A program made the position numbers and the translations under genes. This document shows positions 5,259 through 36,451 of a stretch of DNA of 42,190 nt, one piece after another. Each line of letters opens with the position of its first letter. Position 1 is the first letter of the stretch. Below the pieces are notes generated by a model. The model made no database searches and was not told the DNA's origin. It saw only the letters and a program-made list of their open reading frames with translations. Source of the DNA: a virus; IMG/VR virus record IMGVR_UViG_3300048672_000850, positions 1-42,190 of that record. One strand, 5' to 3'.

Positions 5259-5280
5259 CCGGAAACAGGATTAATCCCTT

Positions 5281-5315
5281 GGGCAGATACTCTCTGCCTA
5301 ATAATTAATTTTGTC
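5281..5315 (+). terminator. Terminator-like hairpin
   Basis: GGGCAGA (5281-5287) pairs with TCTGCCT (5293-5299) over a TACTC loop, with one G.U pair, followed by an A/T tract (5300-5314) ending in TTTT. It stands 22 nt after the stop of the 62-residue gene and immediately before a long inverted repeat. A weak rho-independent terminator is likely. Confidence 0.55.
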
Positions 5316-5316
5316 T

Positions 5317-5417
5317 TGGGGTGTTAGTATCAGTAGGGGGTTTGGCTACCCTATGTGTAAGTTATGCGTTGCGTTCCACCAAAAATCCTGCCGTATGGAA
5401 GTGATGCTAACACCCCA
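5317..5417 (+). promoter_or_regulatory. 16-bp inverted repeat enclosing a 69-nt loop, candidate leader RNA
   Basis: TGGGGTGTTAGTATCA (5317-5332) pairs along its whole length with TGATGCTAACACCCCA (5402-5417), with a single G.U pair (5328-5406). The loop can form a small TAGGG/CCCTA hairpin (5334-5353). It lies between a terminator-like hairpin and the gene before the DNA polymerase, so it may control polymerase expression. Function is inference. Confidence 0.55.
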
Positions 5418-5692: not shown

Positions 5693-8197
5693 ATGGCAAT
5701 TAGCTCGCAAGATAAAGTCAAACAGTTGGCGGAGCAAATTGCTGCACTGAGAAAACAAAATGTACCCTCTGCGCAGGACTTGAAAAAGTTTTCTGCTCAG
5801 AGGGCTTTTTTCTTTGGCACTCAGTTTGACAAAGCTTACAAAGCTCAGCTTACTCCCTTAATGGCAAACTGGGATCTGTCCTTTGGATTCCTGACATTGC
5901 CTAGCTTGGACAAACTTAAAGAACTTTGCACCGAACATGGCATTACTCGGGTAATTTCTACCTGTCCTGACTTGCTTAAAAAACTGGTTGAGTATCTTGG
6001 GGGAAACTCCAAGGAAGCTTCTCTGGATAACTATGCAGGTAGCATCTTCAAGTTTGAGGGCATTGAAGTCCTGTTTATCCATAACCTGAAGCGTATCTTC
6101 TCAGTTCCCTATGGCAAGTTCATGGCTGAGCGTTTCTTGTCTAAGTTCACTCACCCCCAGAAATGGGTTGAACCTTCCAGATTCGCCTGGGAGATGTTTA
6201 AGGCAGAGACTGCGGAAGAGACTTATAGCTTCTTTGTGCAGCAGTGTTTCCTGATTGCCTATGACATTGAAACAAAGCGTGAGCATCTGTCCATTGACAT
6301 AATTTCCTTCACCGGATTTTATTTTAATGAAGAGAAAAAGCTCTGCTCTCGTAGCATTGTTATCGAATTGCGAGATATGTTCTCTGTGGTTTGGATGAGA
6401 AAGTTCTTGTCCTGCCCAGTTCGTAAAGTAACACAGAACGGTAAGTATGATAACCTCTACTTGCTGAGATTTAATTCCCCTGCCACAAACTGGTTCTGGG
6501 ATACGGCCTATTTGTTTCATTCATGGTATGCTGAACTTCCGAAAGACCTTGGCTTCCTTAACGCTTTTTTCCTGCGTACAGTGGTATATTGGAAAGACCT
6601 CTCTAAGTCGGGGGATCGAGAAGATTATTGCAAGTATTGCGCCCTGGATAGTTGGGCTACTGGTAATGTTTTTCTTGCTCAGCTGGATGAAATGCCGGAA
6701 TGGGCAAAGAACAATTACCTACTGAAGTTTCGCTTGCAATTCCCTTCTCTACTGTGTGAGCATACTGGACTTGTTCGTGACTTTGATAGGCTAGAATCTG
6801 CCCGGGCTGAAGTGGATAACCAGGAAGAAGAAGCTTTGGAATCCTTGCGTAATATGCTTGGGGTTCCTGGCTTCAATCCTAACAGCCATACTCAAGTTAA
6901 GAACCTGTTGAGAGTTCTGGGTTGTGGTGATCTGGCAGATATATCTTCAGATGAGACTCATCTACAAAAGGCCGGATTCAGGCATCCTCTGAACAAGCGG
7001 ATTCTGGATAAAATCCTTGACATTCGTGGATTACGTAAGCTAAAGAGCACATACCTTCGCACTGAAGACGATAGCAAAAAGAATGGTGAAGGTGGGGCAA
7101 AAGAGTATAAGGGCATGATCCTGTATTCCCTGCATCCAACAGGTACAGAGTCTGGCCGCAACTCCAGTAAGTCAAGTTCTTTCTGGTGTGGCATTCAGAT
7201 TCAAAACATTCCTGCTGGACTTAGCCTGCCTAAGCAAACTCTCAGGGCACCAGAAGGTTTCTATATGGCAGAAGCTGATTTGGAGCAAGCTGAATCTCGG
7301 GATACCGCCTACATTACAGGTGACACTAACCTGATTGTGGCAGTAACTGAGAAGGGTGACTTCCATAGTTACAACGCTAGTAACTTCTTTGGTGTGCCTT
7401 ATGAACACATTTATGACGAAAAGACAAAAAAGAAACTGAGAAAAGACTTGCGTGATATGTCCAAGCCTATCAATCACGGAGCTAACTACAACATGGGACC
7501 AGATGTCATGATTGATAACATGACTTTGCCTATGGTATGGAAAGCAAAAGATTTGCTGGGTTTGCCCTTTCATCAAGCAATTGAAATCACAGAACATCTG
7601 TTAGTCAAGTTTCATCTGACTTACCCAAAGCTGCGCGGACAGATTCGTTTCCGTAGTGAGGCTGTCAGGCACTTCAACAAACTACCTGCTAATGACCACA
7701 AGTTGTTTGCTCCAGGAACCTATTATGAGTATGCTGCTGACTCCGTAAGGCTGACAAATAAGTTAACAAGTAGGGCCTTCCATCACACTGAGTATAACCT
7801 TAGCAAGTTTACTCCCGAAGAATACATTATTCGTGGAGACTGGACTCGCTACTGTTTCGGTCGGCCTTGGGAAAACAAACTTGACCTGAATAGCTATGCT
7901 GCCCACGGACCACAAAGTCTAAATGCAAGAACACTGGATGAGGCTTTTATGCAAGTGTTCTACAAAGTAGCACTTCCTAACCCTCAGACCTTTCGACTTA
8001 ATGCCCAAATCCACGACTCCATCTTGCATTGCTTTAAGATTGGACATGAACATCTTAGCCGTGAGGTTGCCAAACTCATGGAAATTCCTGTCTCAGTCCG
8101 AGACATATCTGGCATTACCCGTACCTTCACTGTCCCTGCTGCTATCAAAGCGGGAAAAGATGGGAAGGGAGTTACTTTTTGGAGTGATACCGAATGA
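5693..8197 (+). CDS. Family A DNA polymerase with 3'-5' exonuclease
   Basis: The 834-residue protein has both domains of a replicative Pol I-type enzyme. Exonuclease motifs are D191-x-E193 (exo I), N249GKYD253 (exo II) and Y315xxxD319 (exo III). Polymerase motif A is D529 in ADLEQAESR, the O-helix is R587xxxK591xxxH595xxxY599, and motif C is H774-D775-S776. H595 replaces the usual Phe/Tyr, and S776 replaces the usual Glu after the catalytic Asp; the catalytic aspartates and exonuclease acids are intact, so it should be active. There is no N-terminal 5'-nuclease. The end overlaps the next gene by ATGA. It is the phage replicative polymerase. Confidence 0.95.
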   Translation: MAISSQDKVKQLAEQIAALRKQNVPSAQDLKKFSAQRAFFFGTQFDKAYKAQLTPLMANWDLSFGFLTLPSLDKLKELCTEHGITRVISTCPDLLKKLVEYLGGNSKEASLDNYAGSIFKFEGIEVLFIHNLKRIFSVPYGKFMAERFLSKFTHPQKWVEPSRFAWEMFKAETAEETYSFFVQQCFLIAYDIETKREHLSIDIISFTGFYFNEEKKLCSRSIVIELRDMFSVVWMRKFLSCPVRKVTQNGKYDNLYLLRFNSPATNWFWDTAYLFHSWYAELPKDLGFLNAFFLRTVVYWKDLSKSGDREDYCKYCALDSWATGNVFLAQLDEMPEWAKNNYLLKFRLQFPSLLCEHTGLVRDFDRLESARAEVDNQEEEALESLRNMLGVPGFNPNSHTQVKNLLRVLGCGDLADISSDETHLQKAGFRHPLNKRILDKILDIRGLRKLKSTYLRTEDDSKKNGEGGAKEYKGMILYSLHPTGTESGRNSSKSSSFWCGIQIQNIPAGLSLPKQTLRAPEGFYMAEADLEQAESRDTAYITGDTNLIVAVTEKGDFHSYNASNFFGVPYEHIYDEKTKKKLRKDLRDMSKPINHGANYNMGPDVMIDNMTLPMVWKAKDLLGLPFHQAIEITEHLLVKFHLTYPKLRGQIRFRSEAVRHFNKLPANDHKLFAPGTYYEYAADSVRLTNKLTSRAFHHTEYNLSKFTPEEYIIRGDWTRYCFGRPWENKLDLNSYAAHGPQSLNARTLDEAFMQVFYKVALPNPQTFRLNAQIHDSILHCFKIGHEHLSREVAKLMEIPVSVRDISGITRTFTVPAAIKAGKDGKGVTFWSDTE

Positions 8198-32983: not shown

Positions 32984-33335
32984 GTTTGCTTCTCCTAAAT
33001 TCTTGATTGTTTCTATGATAGCCAGGACTTGCTAGGGTAGCTAGTGGGGGTAAGAGGAAAGGGGTTAAGATAAGGTAGGTTAGTTAACTTAAGGGGAAGG
33101 TAAGAGGGAAATTTTTTAGAAATTTTGGGGGAGTTTCATAGATAGGCAGCCCAGGCCCCACCCCCTAAAAAGTCCTACCCCCCGGGGTCTAAATGCGAAT
33201 CATTCTCATTCTCAGTCCGGCTTTGCCTTAGTTAGTTAGCACTAACTGACTTTTGCCCTGCTTTTGCCCAGGTCAGGTTAGGATTAGGTTAGGGTTTTTC
33301 CTTACCTGACATGAACTTTTCTTTGCCTGACATGG
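32984..33335. promoter_or_regulatory. Divergent control region
   Basis: This non-coding stretch between terS and the right-arm genes holds G/A-rich and TTAGG-rich segments, an AGTTAG-CA-CTAACT palindrome (33234-33247), a Fur-box-like sequence (33195-33213), and CCTGACATG at 33305-33313 and 33326-33334 (21 bp apart). A weak leftward promoter (TGAGAA, 17 nt, TAGACC, 33214 down to 33186) overlaps the Fur-like site. No clear consensus late promoter is found. Confidence 0.6.
33195..33213. promoter_or_regulatory. Fur-box-like sequence
   Basis: GCGAATCATTCTCATTCTC matches, in reverse complement, about 14 of 19 positions of the classical Fur consensus, including two GAxAAT hexamers. It lies between the divergent operons and overlaps a weak leftward promoter. 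Whether the host Fur protein binds it is unknown; a chance match is possible. Confidence 0.4.
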
Positions 33336-33576: not shown

Positions 33577-33587
33577 ACCTAAACCCT

Positions 33588-33606
33588 AAACCCCTAGGGG
33601 TTTATT
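33588..33606 (+). terminator. Palindromic terminator-like hairpin
   Basis: AAACCCCTAGGGGTTT (33588-33603) is a perfect 16-bp palindrome, followed by ATTC. It is either a short terminator or an operator, and lies directly before the 17-bp inverted repeat. Confidence 0.5.
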
Positions 33607-33661
33607 CTAAATGTGCTGAGTGGTTTGTAAGGTTCACGTAAGATAGCATATTTAGAATAAA
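33601..33661 (+). promoter_or_regulatory. 17-bp inverted repeat with candidate -10 element
   Basis: Bases 33601-33617 pair with 33645-33661 along all 17 positions, with one G.U, over a 27-nt loop. The right arm contains TAGAAT (33653-33658), a good -10, followed after 4 nt by TTCTCGGTTAG (33663-33673), similar to the initial region TCATCGGTTAG of the upstream promoter. No good -35 is seen, so a regulated promoter or leader hairpin is possible. Confidence 0.5.
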
Positions 33662-33682
33662 GTTCTCGGTTAGATAAACAAT

Positions 33683-33694
33683 TGGCCTAGGCCA
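33683..33694. promoter_or_regulatory. Perfect 12-bp palindrome in the leader
   Basis: TGGCCTAGGCCA lies 14 nt upstream of the ATG at 33709, between the inverted repeat and the ribosome binding site. It could be a protein-binding site. It shares the CCTAGG core with other palindromes of this phage. Confidence 0.4.
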
Positions 33695-33708
33695 GAAAGT
33701 AGGATGAT

Positions 33709-34011
33709 ATGCTGGACCCTAACCATTACTTCTTTACTCAGACGATCAAGTGCCCCTGGGACAAGTCCCGTACCATGACTCGAATTGTCGTAGGGGAAGC
33801 CCCTAATAGGCAGGAGTTCATTAAGATAGCAGGGTCCATGGGCTTTGCAAAAGTTTATTATTCACGGAAAATAGTTTTTGGTTCTCCGCAGTGGGAAAGG
33901 CTGGACAAGGCATACCCACAAATCCCTGTGGTTTACTCTCCTATGGGTTATATGTTTTGGGTCAGCCATTACAGGCTTGATCCTACCTTATATAATCTGC
34001 TGGAGTGCTAA
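33709..34011 (+). CDS. Unknown 100-residue protein
   Basis: The protein is basic and rich in aromatic residues (CPWDKSRTMTRIVVGEAP; VYSPMGYMFWVSHYR). AGGA lies 5 nt upstream. No family is recognised. It ends at the start of a TAACCC repeat array. Confidence 0.75.
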   Translation: MLDPNHYFFTQTIKCPWDKSRTMTRIVVGEAPNRQEFIKIAGSMGFAKVYYSRKIVFGSPQWERLDKAYPQIPVVYSPMGYMFWVSHYRLDPTLYNLLEC

Positions 34012-34040
34012 CCCAGTAACCCTAACCCTAACCCAAACCC
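34009..34040. repeat. Telomere-like TAACCC repeats
   Basis: Five tandem or near-tandem copies of TAACCC or CCCTAA-like units span this stretch, followed by AAACCC-TCAC-GGGTTT. Related GGTTAGG/CCTAACC units occur at 33274-33294, 34849-34881, 35455-35468 and 36408-36430, all intergenic. The function is unknown. Confidence 0.7.
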
Positions 34041-34060
34041 TCACGGGTTTAGGTTTCTAT
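34031..34060 (+). terminator. Terminator-like hairpin before the leader element
   Basis: AAACCC (34035-34040) pairs with GGGTTT (34045-34050) over a TCAC loop. ACC and GGT extend the stem with one mismatch, and T-rich bases follow. It precedes the leader hairpin at 34062. Confidence 0.5.
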
Positions 34061-34061
34061 C

Positions 34062-34099
34062 TTCAGTGTCTCAATTCCGGGACATTGAAACCTAGAAAC
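34062..34099 (+). promoter_or_regulatory. Leader hairpin element, copy A
   Basis: TTCAGTGTC (34062-34070) pairs with GACATTGAA (34081-34089) over a TCAATTCCGG loop, and TGAAACCTAGAAAC (34086-34099) follows. The same layout occurs at 35814-35853 with a different but also complementary stem (compensatory changes) and the same 14-nt box. It lies 35 nt upstream of the gene at 34134. Probably a structured regulatory RNA. Confidence 0.65.
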
Positions 34100-34133
34100 C
34101 GGGCTATTCTGCCCATTGTGTATTGGAGCCATC

Positions 34134-34835
34134 ATGTCGGTTATTTCTTCGCGTCATCAAGTTCTGCCCTTTGTTTCTGGCAAGTCTTCTGCCTTGACCG
34201 GTCAGCGTATGTTGAAAATCGGTTATAAGGAAAGCAAGGGTAAGAAAGCCAAGTTCCCTCCGCACTTTGCTAGCGTACCTAAACTGGCATCCTTTGCTGA
34301 ACTGGCTGAAACTATCACCGGCAAGAATTTGCTTGCCATTGAGGAGTATTTGATTGAAACCTTGGAAAAAGCCCAGAACGAAACCGGAAAAGCCTTGTTT
34401 GAGAAAGCCAATGGCAAACTGGCCGGACTGGACGATTCAGATATTGATCTGGCCGCAATCAATGCTTTTCTGTCTGAAACTTCAAGTTCTTCAGGGCGCC
34501 TGACGAAGGAATTGATTACCCAGTGGTTCGATTCCTGTCTGGCTGAGAATCTTGCAGTCTTGATTGCGGGTAAGTTCAAACTGCCCGATTCCCCGGAAAG
34601 CTTGAAGAATCCCTCAGTGGTCCAGCAGATCAACATTCTCCGGGCGAACTTTGAAGCTTTCAGCAACCCTAATGCTGTCTTCTCTGAACTTCAGATGAAG
34701 AATGTGAAGAGTGGTTTGCAATTGTCCGATGACGAAGAGCACTTTGTGCAGCGCAAGATTATTGCCCGCATCACAGAAATGGAAAAGCCGATTGTGGTTG
34801 AGGAAGCTATTGATTTGTCCAGCCTCATGGATTAA
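34134..34835 (+). CDS. Unknown protein of 233 residues, abundant early-type
   Basis: The start at 34134 follows GGAG. The protein has a basic N-terminus (residues 24-42, KIGYKESKGKKAK), then helices and an acidic C-terminus. I recognise no family. Its segment order loosely matches the first left-arm gene (166-780): basic segment, VP, TG, W-led helix. With the leader element at 34062 it may be highly expressed early. Confidence 0.8.
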   Translation: MSVISSRHQVLPFVSGKSSALTGQRMLKIGYKESKGKKAKFPPHFASVPKLASFAELAETITGKNLLAIEEYLIETLEKAQNETGKALFEKANGKLAGLDDSDIDLAAINAFLSETSSSSGRLTKELITQWFDSCLAENLAVLIAGKFKLPDSPESLKNPSVVQQINILRANFEAFSNPNAVFSELQMKNVKSGLQLSDDEEHFVQRKIIARITEMEKPIVVEEAIDLSSLMD

Positions 34836-35240
34836 ACCTATGGCAATGGTTTAGGGTTAGGTTCCCTTGGTTAGGTTAGCTAGAATAGTTAACTTATCCC
34901 GGGGGAGTCACCACGGTCACGAATTCCCGCCGCGTCTGTGCTGACTGTACAGACTGCCCTGACCGCCCTGACTGTTGTGACCGTGACCCGTAGCCCCCTG
35001 CCTACCCGCCCCCTGCCTGCTGACCTTTAACTTAACTGACCATATCTAACCTTATCTACACATCTTTGGATTTGCCTAGCACTACCTAGCGTAGTCTAGG
35101 TAAGTATAGATACGTGTATATAAGCTTATGTATATCAGTGTATATTAGGGTATTATTTCAATTTTTATTTTAAAAGTACCCTTAAAAAACAGCGTGGAAA
35201 GAAAAACACATGAAAATAACCTAACTACCTTCTGGAAGCA

Positions 35241-35318
35241 TTAAGTATGTCTAAGGGAGTATTAAGTAGGGTACTTAAGCCTGTTTCGGGGTACTTAACA
35301 GCCCTTCAATGTACTTAA
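35241..35318. repeat. Five phased TTAAGTA/TACTTAA motifs
   Basis: TTAAGTA occurs at 35241 and 35262, and its reverse complement TACTTAA at 35272, 35292 and 35312. The steps are 21, 10, 20 and 20 bp, multiples of about one helical turn, so all sites face one side of the DNA. This fits iterons bound cooperatively by an initiator or regulator. The last three are preceded by G (GTACTTAA). Confidence 0.7.
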
Positions 35319-35386
35319 CATTCACGGAACTAGCTAATATAAGCCCATGCACCCCGGGCCTTGCCCCGGACCCCCCTATGTGCTAC

Positions 35387-35420
35387 AGTCACAGCAGTCA
35401 CCGGAGTCACAGCAGTCACC
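35387..35420. repeat. Tandem 16-bp direct repeat
   Basis: AGTCACAGCAGTCACC occurs at 35387-35402 and again at 35405-35420, a period of 18 bp. It borders the 19-nt repeat at 35420-35438. It may be part of the origin or a regulator site. Confidence 0.7.
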
Positions 35421-35486
35421 CGTGACCGCCCTGACTGTAGCCCAACGCCCCGTCAACCTAACCTAACCCCTACAGGAGAACTTAAA

Positions 35487-35747
35487 ATGGCATATATTCT
35501 AGAGGCTTGGCACCTTACACCTAGCGGTGAGGGAGAAGAAATGCACGAAAAACTTCGTGTTAATTCCACCTTTAAAGTTCAGGGAAGCATAAAAGCTTTA
35601 AAAACTGTCGGGGTTGTGCGCATTACCCTTGCACGCTCAGAAAAACCCGATGATCTGAAAGACTTGTTTAGGGGAACTAACCGTCGCTTAGAATTAGATG
35701 GTCCTATGTATGTTTTCAGGGACAGGGAGTTTACCCCGAAAGCTTAA
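35487..35747 (+). CDS. Unknown 86-residue protein
   Basis: The start at 35487 has AGGAG 8 nt upstream, which favours it over a longer reading from 35361 that would translate the repeats. The soluble protein has no recognised family. It lies between the origin-like region and a terminator. Confidence 0.75.
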   Translation: MAYILEAWHLTPSGEGEEMHEKLRVNSTFKVQGSIKALKTVGVVRITLARSEKPDDLKDLFRGTNRRLELDGPMYVFRDREFTPKA

Positions 35748-35765
35748 AAACAAACTGAATTACTA

Positions 35766-35810
35766 AGGGACTAGGAGGCTAACCACTCCCCTAGTCCCTA
35801 GGCTGTTTTT
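35766..35810 (+). terminator. Rho-independent terminator
   Basis: AGGGACTAGG (35766-35775) pairs with CCTAGTCCCT (35790-35799); TTTTT follows at 35806-35810. It stands right before leader element copy B. Confidence 0.75.
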
Positions 35811-35813
35811 ATC

Positions 35814-35853
35814 TTCAGCCCATCTAATTCTGGGTGGGCTGAAACCTAGAAAC
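35814..35853 (+). promoter_or_regulatory. Leader hairpin element, copy B
   Basis: TTCAGCCCA (35814-35822) pairs with TGGGCTGAA (35835-35843) over a 12-nt loop containing AATTC, and TGAAACCTAGAAAC (35840-35853) follows. Stem bases differ from copy A at 34062 but stay paired. Both copies are preceded by a terminator-like hairpin and lie 30-35 nt before a start codon. Confidence 0.65.
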
Positions 35854-35883
35854 ACTGGCCTAATAAGGTCAAAAGGGAATACC

Positions 35884-36093
35884 ATGTACTATCGTGACAT
35901 TGAAACCGGCGCGCAAATTCGCACCTTTGATGAGCATGGCAAGCGGATTATTGTTTCTGCGGGCACTCTCCACGACCAGGAACAGGCGGATAAGGCAATC
36001 CGTCGCCGTCGGTCAGGGCTGGAAAAATTTCACCGAGTCAATGGTATGACCAAAACCTTGCAGCGTAAACTGCGTAAGGGATTCCAAAGTTAG
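35884..36093 (+). CDS. Unknown 69-residue basic protein
   Basis: The protein has an RRRRSG-like segment and many Lys/Arg residues in the second half, which suggests nucleic acid binding. AGGGAA lies upstream. No family is recognised. The stop lies in the loop of an 8-bp hairpin (ATTCCAAA 36081-36088, TTTGGAAT 36095-36102). Confidence 0.7.
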   Translation: MYYRDIETGAQIRTFDEHGKRIIVSAGTLHDQEQADKAIRRRRSGLEKFHRVNGMTKTLQRKLRKGFQS

Positions 36094-36393: not shown

Positions 36394-36451
36394 AAACCTT
36401 TCAGTTTTGACCCTTAACCCTTAACCCTAACTTAACAGAATTGGAATTAAA

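Follow-up and report, generated by a model that had tools for sequence, protein, structure and literature searches.

Processing of phage messages of the T7 type is already known and is a textbook case, one that rests on few phage groups. RNase III recognizes its substrates by structure more than by sequence, and at the T7 site R1.1 the cut is documented at T7 nt 5887 (PMC8708148). Other described RNA elements that invite comparison are the put RNA of phage HK022, ~70 nt long, composed of two stem-loops and located downstream of early promoters (PMC9378689), and the 5′-terminal stabilizing stem-loops of mRNAs of the ompA/papA type (among the references given in PMC3997798).

The window analyzed here is an entire virus record of 42,190 bases. 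It contains two copies of an intercistronic hairpin that are probably RNase III-type processing sites giving the downstream mRNA a 5′ hairpin, and a separate uncultured phage group appears to have a T7-like device, represented by dozens of examples that have diverged and covary.

Genomic setting and fold of the two copies

The phage has SU10-type capsid and portal genes together with a family A DNA polymerase, and its terminase is distantly similar to those of Pseudomonas phage 119X/PaMx41 and Aeromonas phage P5. Structural genes run leftward, and rightward genes extend from ~33.4 kb to the window end and then from the window start to 13.2 kb. Copies 1 and 2 lie near the beginning of the rightward region (33.4 kb), each between two same-strand genes that are presumably co-transcribed: the ORFs before them end at 34011 and 35747, and those after them, encoding proteins of 233 and 69 aa, begin at 34134 and 35884. 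The elements, called leaders in the preliminary description, are thus intercistronic and directly follow an upstream stop codon rather than heading a transcript at a promoter.

Both copies are present with the stem-loop-stem-box layout first described, at 34062 and 35814, and the box TGAAACCTAGAAAC has two exact occurrences in the window, at 34086 and 35840. Folding reveals a larger structure, in which each copy is a two-tier hairpin with an 8-bp outer stem, an internal loop and an inner stem (Table 1). The 2x3 internal loop, UC/ACC, is common to both copies, and the identical box is not a separate element, since in 5′ to 3′ order it takes in the last bases of the inner stem, the ACC of the internal loop and then the outer stem's 3′ strand. 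Differences between the two inner stems are compensatory, as had been claimed, and the box-to-ATG distances of 34 nt (copy 1) and 30 nt (copy 2) agree with the gene placed 30-35 nt downstream. None of 200 dinucleotide shuffles is as stable as either copy, the minus strands of both fold more weakly (z about -3.6), and in a window-wide scan the copies rank among the most stable local folds. A small hairpin with a short stem of 4-6 bp, hereinafter P3, begins 0-1 nt past the two-tier hairpin in both copies. A probable third two-tier hairpin, whose sequence differs from that of copies 1 and 2, lies ~50 nt upstream of the gene at 5364; its fold is likewise more stable than all 200 shuffles.

A terminator-like hairpin had also been reported upstream of each copy. 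The one before copy 2 is strong, so that some transcripts may end ahead of this copy, and the GTTTTTAT found a few bases past it itself belongs to the copy 2 outer stem; the one before copy 1 is weak, with a poor T tract, and the claim is partly right. The two-tier hairpins are themselves followed by GGGCTATT and CTGGCCTA, not by the immediate T run of an intrinsic terminator.

Table 1. Positions of the hairpins and neighboring features in the window.
Feature	Position	Strand	Details
Terminator-like hairpin before copy 1, short, weak	34035..34050	+	-5.9 kcal/mol; poor T tract
Copy 1, two-tier hairpin	34052..34100	+	folding, z -6.78
Copy 1, outer stem, 8 bp	34052-34059/34093-34100	+	GGUUUCUA/UAGAAACC
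Copy 1, inner stem, 11 bp	34062-34072/34079-34089	+	UUCAGUGUCUC/GGGACAUUGAA
Copy 1, terminal loop	34073-34078	+	AATTCC (RNA: AAUUCC)
Copy 1, ACC, 3′ side of internal loop	34090..34092	+	predicted cleavage region (geometry; analogy with T7 R1.1)
Copy 1, small hairpin P3	34101..34114	+	folding; GGGC-UAUUCU-GCCC
233-aa gene downstream of copy 1	34134..34835	+	dozens of IMG/VR contigs have it with the terminase locus of the phage group
Terminator-like hairpin before copy 2, strong	35766..35799	+	-18.5 kcal/mol
Copy 2, two-tier hairpin	35804..35854	+	folding, z -6.22
Copy 2, outer stem, 8 bp	35804-35811/35847-35854	+	UGUUUUUA/UAGAAACA
Copy 2, inner stem, 13 bp	35814-35826/35831-35843	+	UUCAGCCCAUCUA/UGGGUGGGCUGAA
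Copy 2, terminal loop	35827-35830	+	
Copy 2, ACC, 3′ side of internal loop	35844..35846	+	predicted cleavage region (geometry)
Copy 2, small hairpin P3	35856..35871	+	folding; UGGCCU-AAUA-AGGUCA
69-aa gene downstream of copy 2	35884..36093	+	
Probable third two-tier hairpin	5266..5313	+	10 bp + 3x2 internal loop + 9 bp; z -4.40

The 233-aa protein has no significant match in Pfam or PHROGs, no confident fold match (pLDDT 81, pTM 0.47) and no tblastn match in named phages, and the 69-aa gene has no relatives among the fetched IMG/VR loci. A DNA similarity search against phages gave no match. Exact-pattern scans of IMG/VR returned chance matches for the 14-nt box and none for both arms.

The rightward region has other repeated features. 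Runs of CCCTAA/CCTAACC-like repeats recur in its intergenic stretches (33580-34030, 34850-34870, 35450-35470 and 36410-36435). Positions 34890-35480, ~600 nt without a convincing gene and partly G+C-rich, contain a strong inverted repeat (35379-35404/35419-35444) as well as 9-nt repeats of the GTCACAGCA/GACTGCCCT type and are a possible origin or packaging region; the related locus L124 has a similar G+C-rich gap past the same 233-aa gene. In the divergent region of both phages a AATGCGAAtcATTCTCATT-like sequence adjoins a CCCCCGGGGT-like palindrome (window 33195-33215, L124 ~1740-1765), a pair that resembles a conserved control site.

Covariation and the outer stem in relatives

Relatives were collected from IMG/VR as 80 loci aligned through the terminase and 61 aligned through the 233-aa protein, which is found beside the terminase locus in most of the fetched loci. 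Among 78 distinct leaders of the 233-aa gene, 35 (type A, the window counted) contain a two-tier hairpin. It mostly ends ~25-60 nt before the start codon and, by manual count, starts no more than about 20 nt from the stop codon of the upstream ORF in ~30 of the 35. Total pairing averages 21.9 bp in the best folds, about two turns, and the internal loop is near-constant among the elements. The best type-A hairpins have a mean energy of -24.3, compared with -13.3 in shuffles (p 2e-18), type A having been chosen partly on energy.

An alignment of 13 relatives supports the pairing directly: 10 of 15 consensus pairs of the inner stem show both-sided compensatory changes, so that the stems are kept as expected of a T7-type RNase III signal. 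Few nucleotides are invariant across the whole set of elements, and a subfamily follows the consensus GAUUGYCC-stem-GGAUGCAAUNNYGCAUC. A covariance model (R1) built from the 13 relatives finds further copies before other genes in loci L216 and L172 and does not match the window copies, whose tie to the relatives' family is one of position and architecture.

In the relatives, the pairing partners of the bases 5′ of the inner stem belong to P3 as well, lying in its 5′ arm or its loop, as in GAUUGU with GCAAUC, UAUUGU with GCAAUA (L216) and AAAAUC with GAUUUU (L140). In most relatives P3 thus shares bases with the outer stem's 3′ strand, whereas in the window it lies just beyond. The permutation test first applied to the outer stem (-7.59 vs -4.49) was discarded because hairpins picked in the same way from shuffled leaders gave an equal contrast (-7.8 vs -4.3). 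In its replacement the inner helix was selected blind to the flanks, which removes most of the selection bias. Matched flanks then pair at -6.26 kcal/mol and unmatched flanks at -3.30 kcal/mol (0 of 5000 permutations), a contrast that still contains kinship among some loci, and shuffled leaders treated by the same blind rule show only a weak effect (-3.25 vs -2.27). A folding advantage of the coding strand, seen in 33 of 39 elements, was kept out of the evidence since the elements were picked on that strand.

Pairing is thus present in homologues in both tiers, the inner stem covarying and the outer stem holding in the flank permutation test. The structure is under selection, as first claimed from the two copies, and what the folds of the window (z -6.8/-6.2) indicated is much strengthened by the comparison with relatives.

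Further two-tier hairpins occur at other intercistronic gaps of the relatives, at ~4550-4790 in L161/L163, two loci with the same lower stem but upper stems of unequal length, and at ~7720-7770 in L247.

Exchange with sigma54-like promoters

Many leaders of the 233-aa gene have a promoter in place of the large hairpin. A sigma54-like promoter, defined as TGGCAYR-N4-TTGCW with at most 1 mismatch within 140 nt, occurs in none of the 35 type-A leaders and in 22 of the 43 others (Fisher p 8e-8), and the two features are mutually exclusive. In 17 of the 22 promoter-class leaders a P3-like small hairpin begins 7-14 nt, modally 10-12 nt, after TTGC. About 10-12 nt past TTGC is where +1 falls at sigma54 promoters, and P3 lies close to the point at which the promoter-born mRNAs are predicted to begin. 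The message of the 233-aa gene therefore seems to start at P3 either way, through initiation or through processing. The element itself was rejected as a promoter, because its covarying stems imply an RNA and because a promoter substitutes for it in other leaders.

The sigma54 promoters of the relatives are a further oddity and look unusual in phages of this kind. Strong sigma54 (RpoN) -24/-12 promoters precede the 233-aa gene and other genes (L123-L211; for example L130 3524-, L156 3745- and 3813+, L193 8544-, L140 8927-), and some of them form divergent pairs oriented toward the terminase operon. Strict matches number 30 vs 1.4 expected, and 20 records hold 8 matches vs 0 in a reversed control. 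The window itself has no such promoter, and no sigma54 activator domain exceeds the Pfam cut-off in the relatives' records. Repeats of the AATTGTCA/TGACAATT type lie near some of the promoters (L156 3813+, L186 658+, L205 2873+ and the L240 leader) and look like upstream activator sites.

Likeness to T7 sites and the proposed processing

As a yardstick, the T7 sites R0.3, R0.5, R0.7, R1, R1.1, R1.3, R3.8, R4.7 and R6.5, at their approximate places, were folded with the algorithm used for the elements. R0.3, R0.5, R1, R1.1, R1.3, R4.7 and R6.5 fold into two-tier hairpins that have 17-25 bp and a short internal loop, and R0.7 and R3.8 give no clean two-tier hairpin under the folding settings used. 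The elements described here have the same build, a duplex of about two turns in which lower and upper stems are split by a short internal loop (8 + 2x3 + 11 or 13 bp in the window, mean 21.9 bp in the relatives), and the 2x3 size of the internal loop in R1 and R1.1 is exactly that of the window copies. The documented cut of R1.1 (nt 5887) is located in the 3′ side of its 2x3 loop, as far from the hairpin 5′ end as the ACC of copy 1. T7 sites and window copies are alike intercistronic, the former before early or middle genes, and the next start codon is mostly a short distance away. In contrast, the window copies and the T7 sites have no primary sequence in common, the phage group has head genes of the SU10/119X type and does not belong to the Autographiviridae, P3, which in most relatives overlaps the outer stem, is an addition, and cleavage, documented for R1.1, is here predicted from geometry.

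In the processing that we propose, a long message would be read from upstream through the element, and about two turns of interrupted duplex (8 bp, 2x3 loop, 11/13 bp) would fold right past the upstream gene. Host RNase III would bind the duplex and cut in or close to the ACC that forms the 3′ side of the internal loop in either copy. The upstream mRNA would retain the hairpin at its 3′ end, and the downstream mRNA, that of the 233-aa or the 69-aa gene, would gain a new 5′ end beside P3, which would protect it. Where the outer stem's 3′ strand and P3 (its 5′ arm or loop) share bases, as in most relatives, cutting would free this strand to fold P3. The host enzyme is presumed since none of 20 phage records has an RNase III domain; recognition being mainly structural, the sequence by itself proves no particular enzyme. 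As expected for a general processing signal, elements are also found before unrelated genes (copy 2 in the window, and those in L216 and L172). P3 resembles the ompA/papA-type stem-loops in lying at the predicted mRNA 5′ end in relatives and differs from them in that it would become available through processing as well as initiation, its stabilizing action being presumed.

A more ambitious reading, which we regard as possible and put forward tentatively, is that of a composite RNA module that belongs to this phage group alone: the outer strand of the processing hairpin would be the 5′ half of the protective cap hairpin of the next mRNA, the cut would switch the folds, and the whole would be evolutionarily exchangeable with a sigma54 promoter starting the message at the same hairpin. 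In the open-licence papers examined we found no description of this phage group, of its dozens of diverged examples, of the P3 overlap or of the sigma54 promoter swap. The dozens of covarying elements would form a natural data set on the substrate requirements of RNase III, and the leaders would offer a case of promoter and processing site replacing each other with the mRNA start unchanged.

The main rival is a stabilizing intercistronic hairpin of the REP type, which would shield the upstream mRNA 3′ end from exonucleases, the ends being made by RNase E or other enzymes and not by cuts in the hairpin. The elements are strong hairpins directly past the upstream stop codon, and position alone fits this reading equally well; we nevertheless judge it unlikely, since it leaves unexplained the near-constant internal loop, the two-turn length, and P3, which is shared with promoter-born mRNAs at their transcript start. 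Cleavage by an agent other than RNase III, either a phage nuclease or the RNA itself as a ribozyme, would follow the same positional logic and could draw on the base sequence conserved in the subfamily (GAUUGYCC...GGAUGCAAU). It appears improbable given that the window and 11 relatives have no Rfam match at the gathering threshold, that few nucleotides are invariant over the whole set, and that the host enzyme is the simple choice where the 20 phage records have no RNase III domain of their own.

Promoter exchange and the copies before unrelated genes tell against both remaining readings. Autoregulation, in which synthesis of the 233-aa protein would be controlled by the element as translational operator or riboswitch, might be read from the fact that most of the relatives' elements precede that gene, although the search was centered on it. 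Given that in the window, in L216 and in L172 copies stand ahead of unrelated genes, that many homologues have a promoter instead of the large hairpin, and that Shine-Dalgarno sequences lie outside the stems, we consider it very improbable. A put-like antitermination RNA, which would bind RNA polymerase and make it ignore the terminators nearby, recalls HK022 in its two stem-loops 0-1 nt apart in a phage early region, and it is scarcely credible and was rejected on position. Every one of the 22 leaders with a sigma54-like promoter close by lacks the large hairpin, contrary to what an antiterminator next to its promoter would require, and the hairpin is present mid-operon behind a gene. The second stem has 4-6 bp, which is short in comparison with put, whose two long stem-loops have defined bulges that contact the zinc-binding domain of RNA polymerase.
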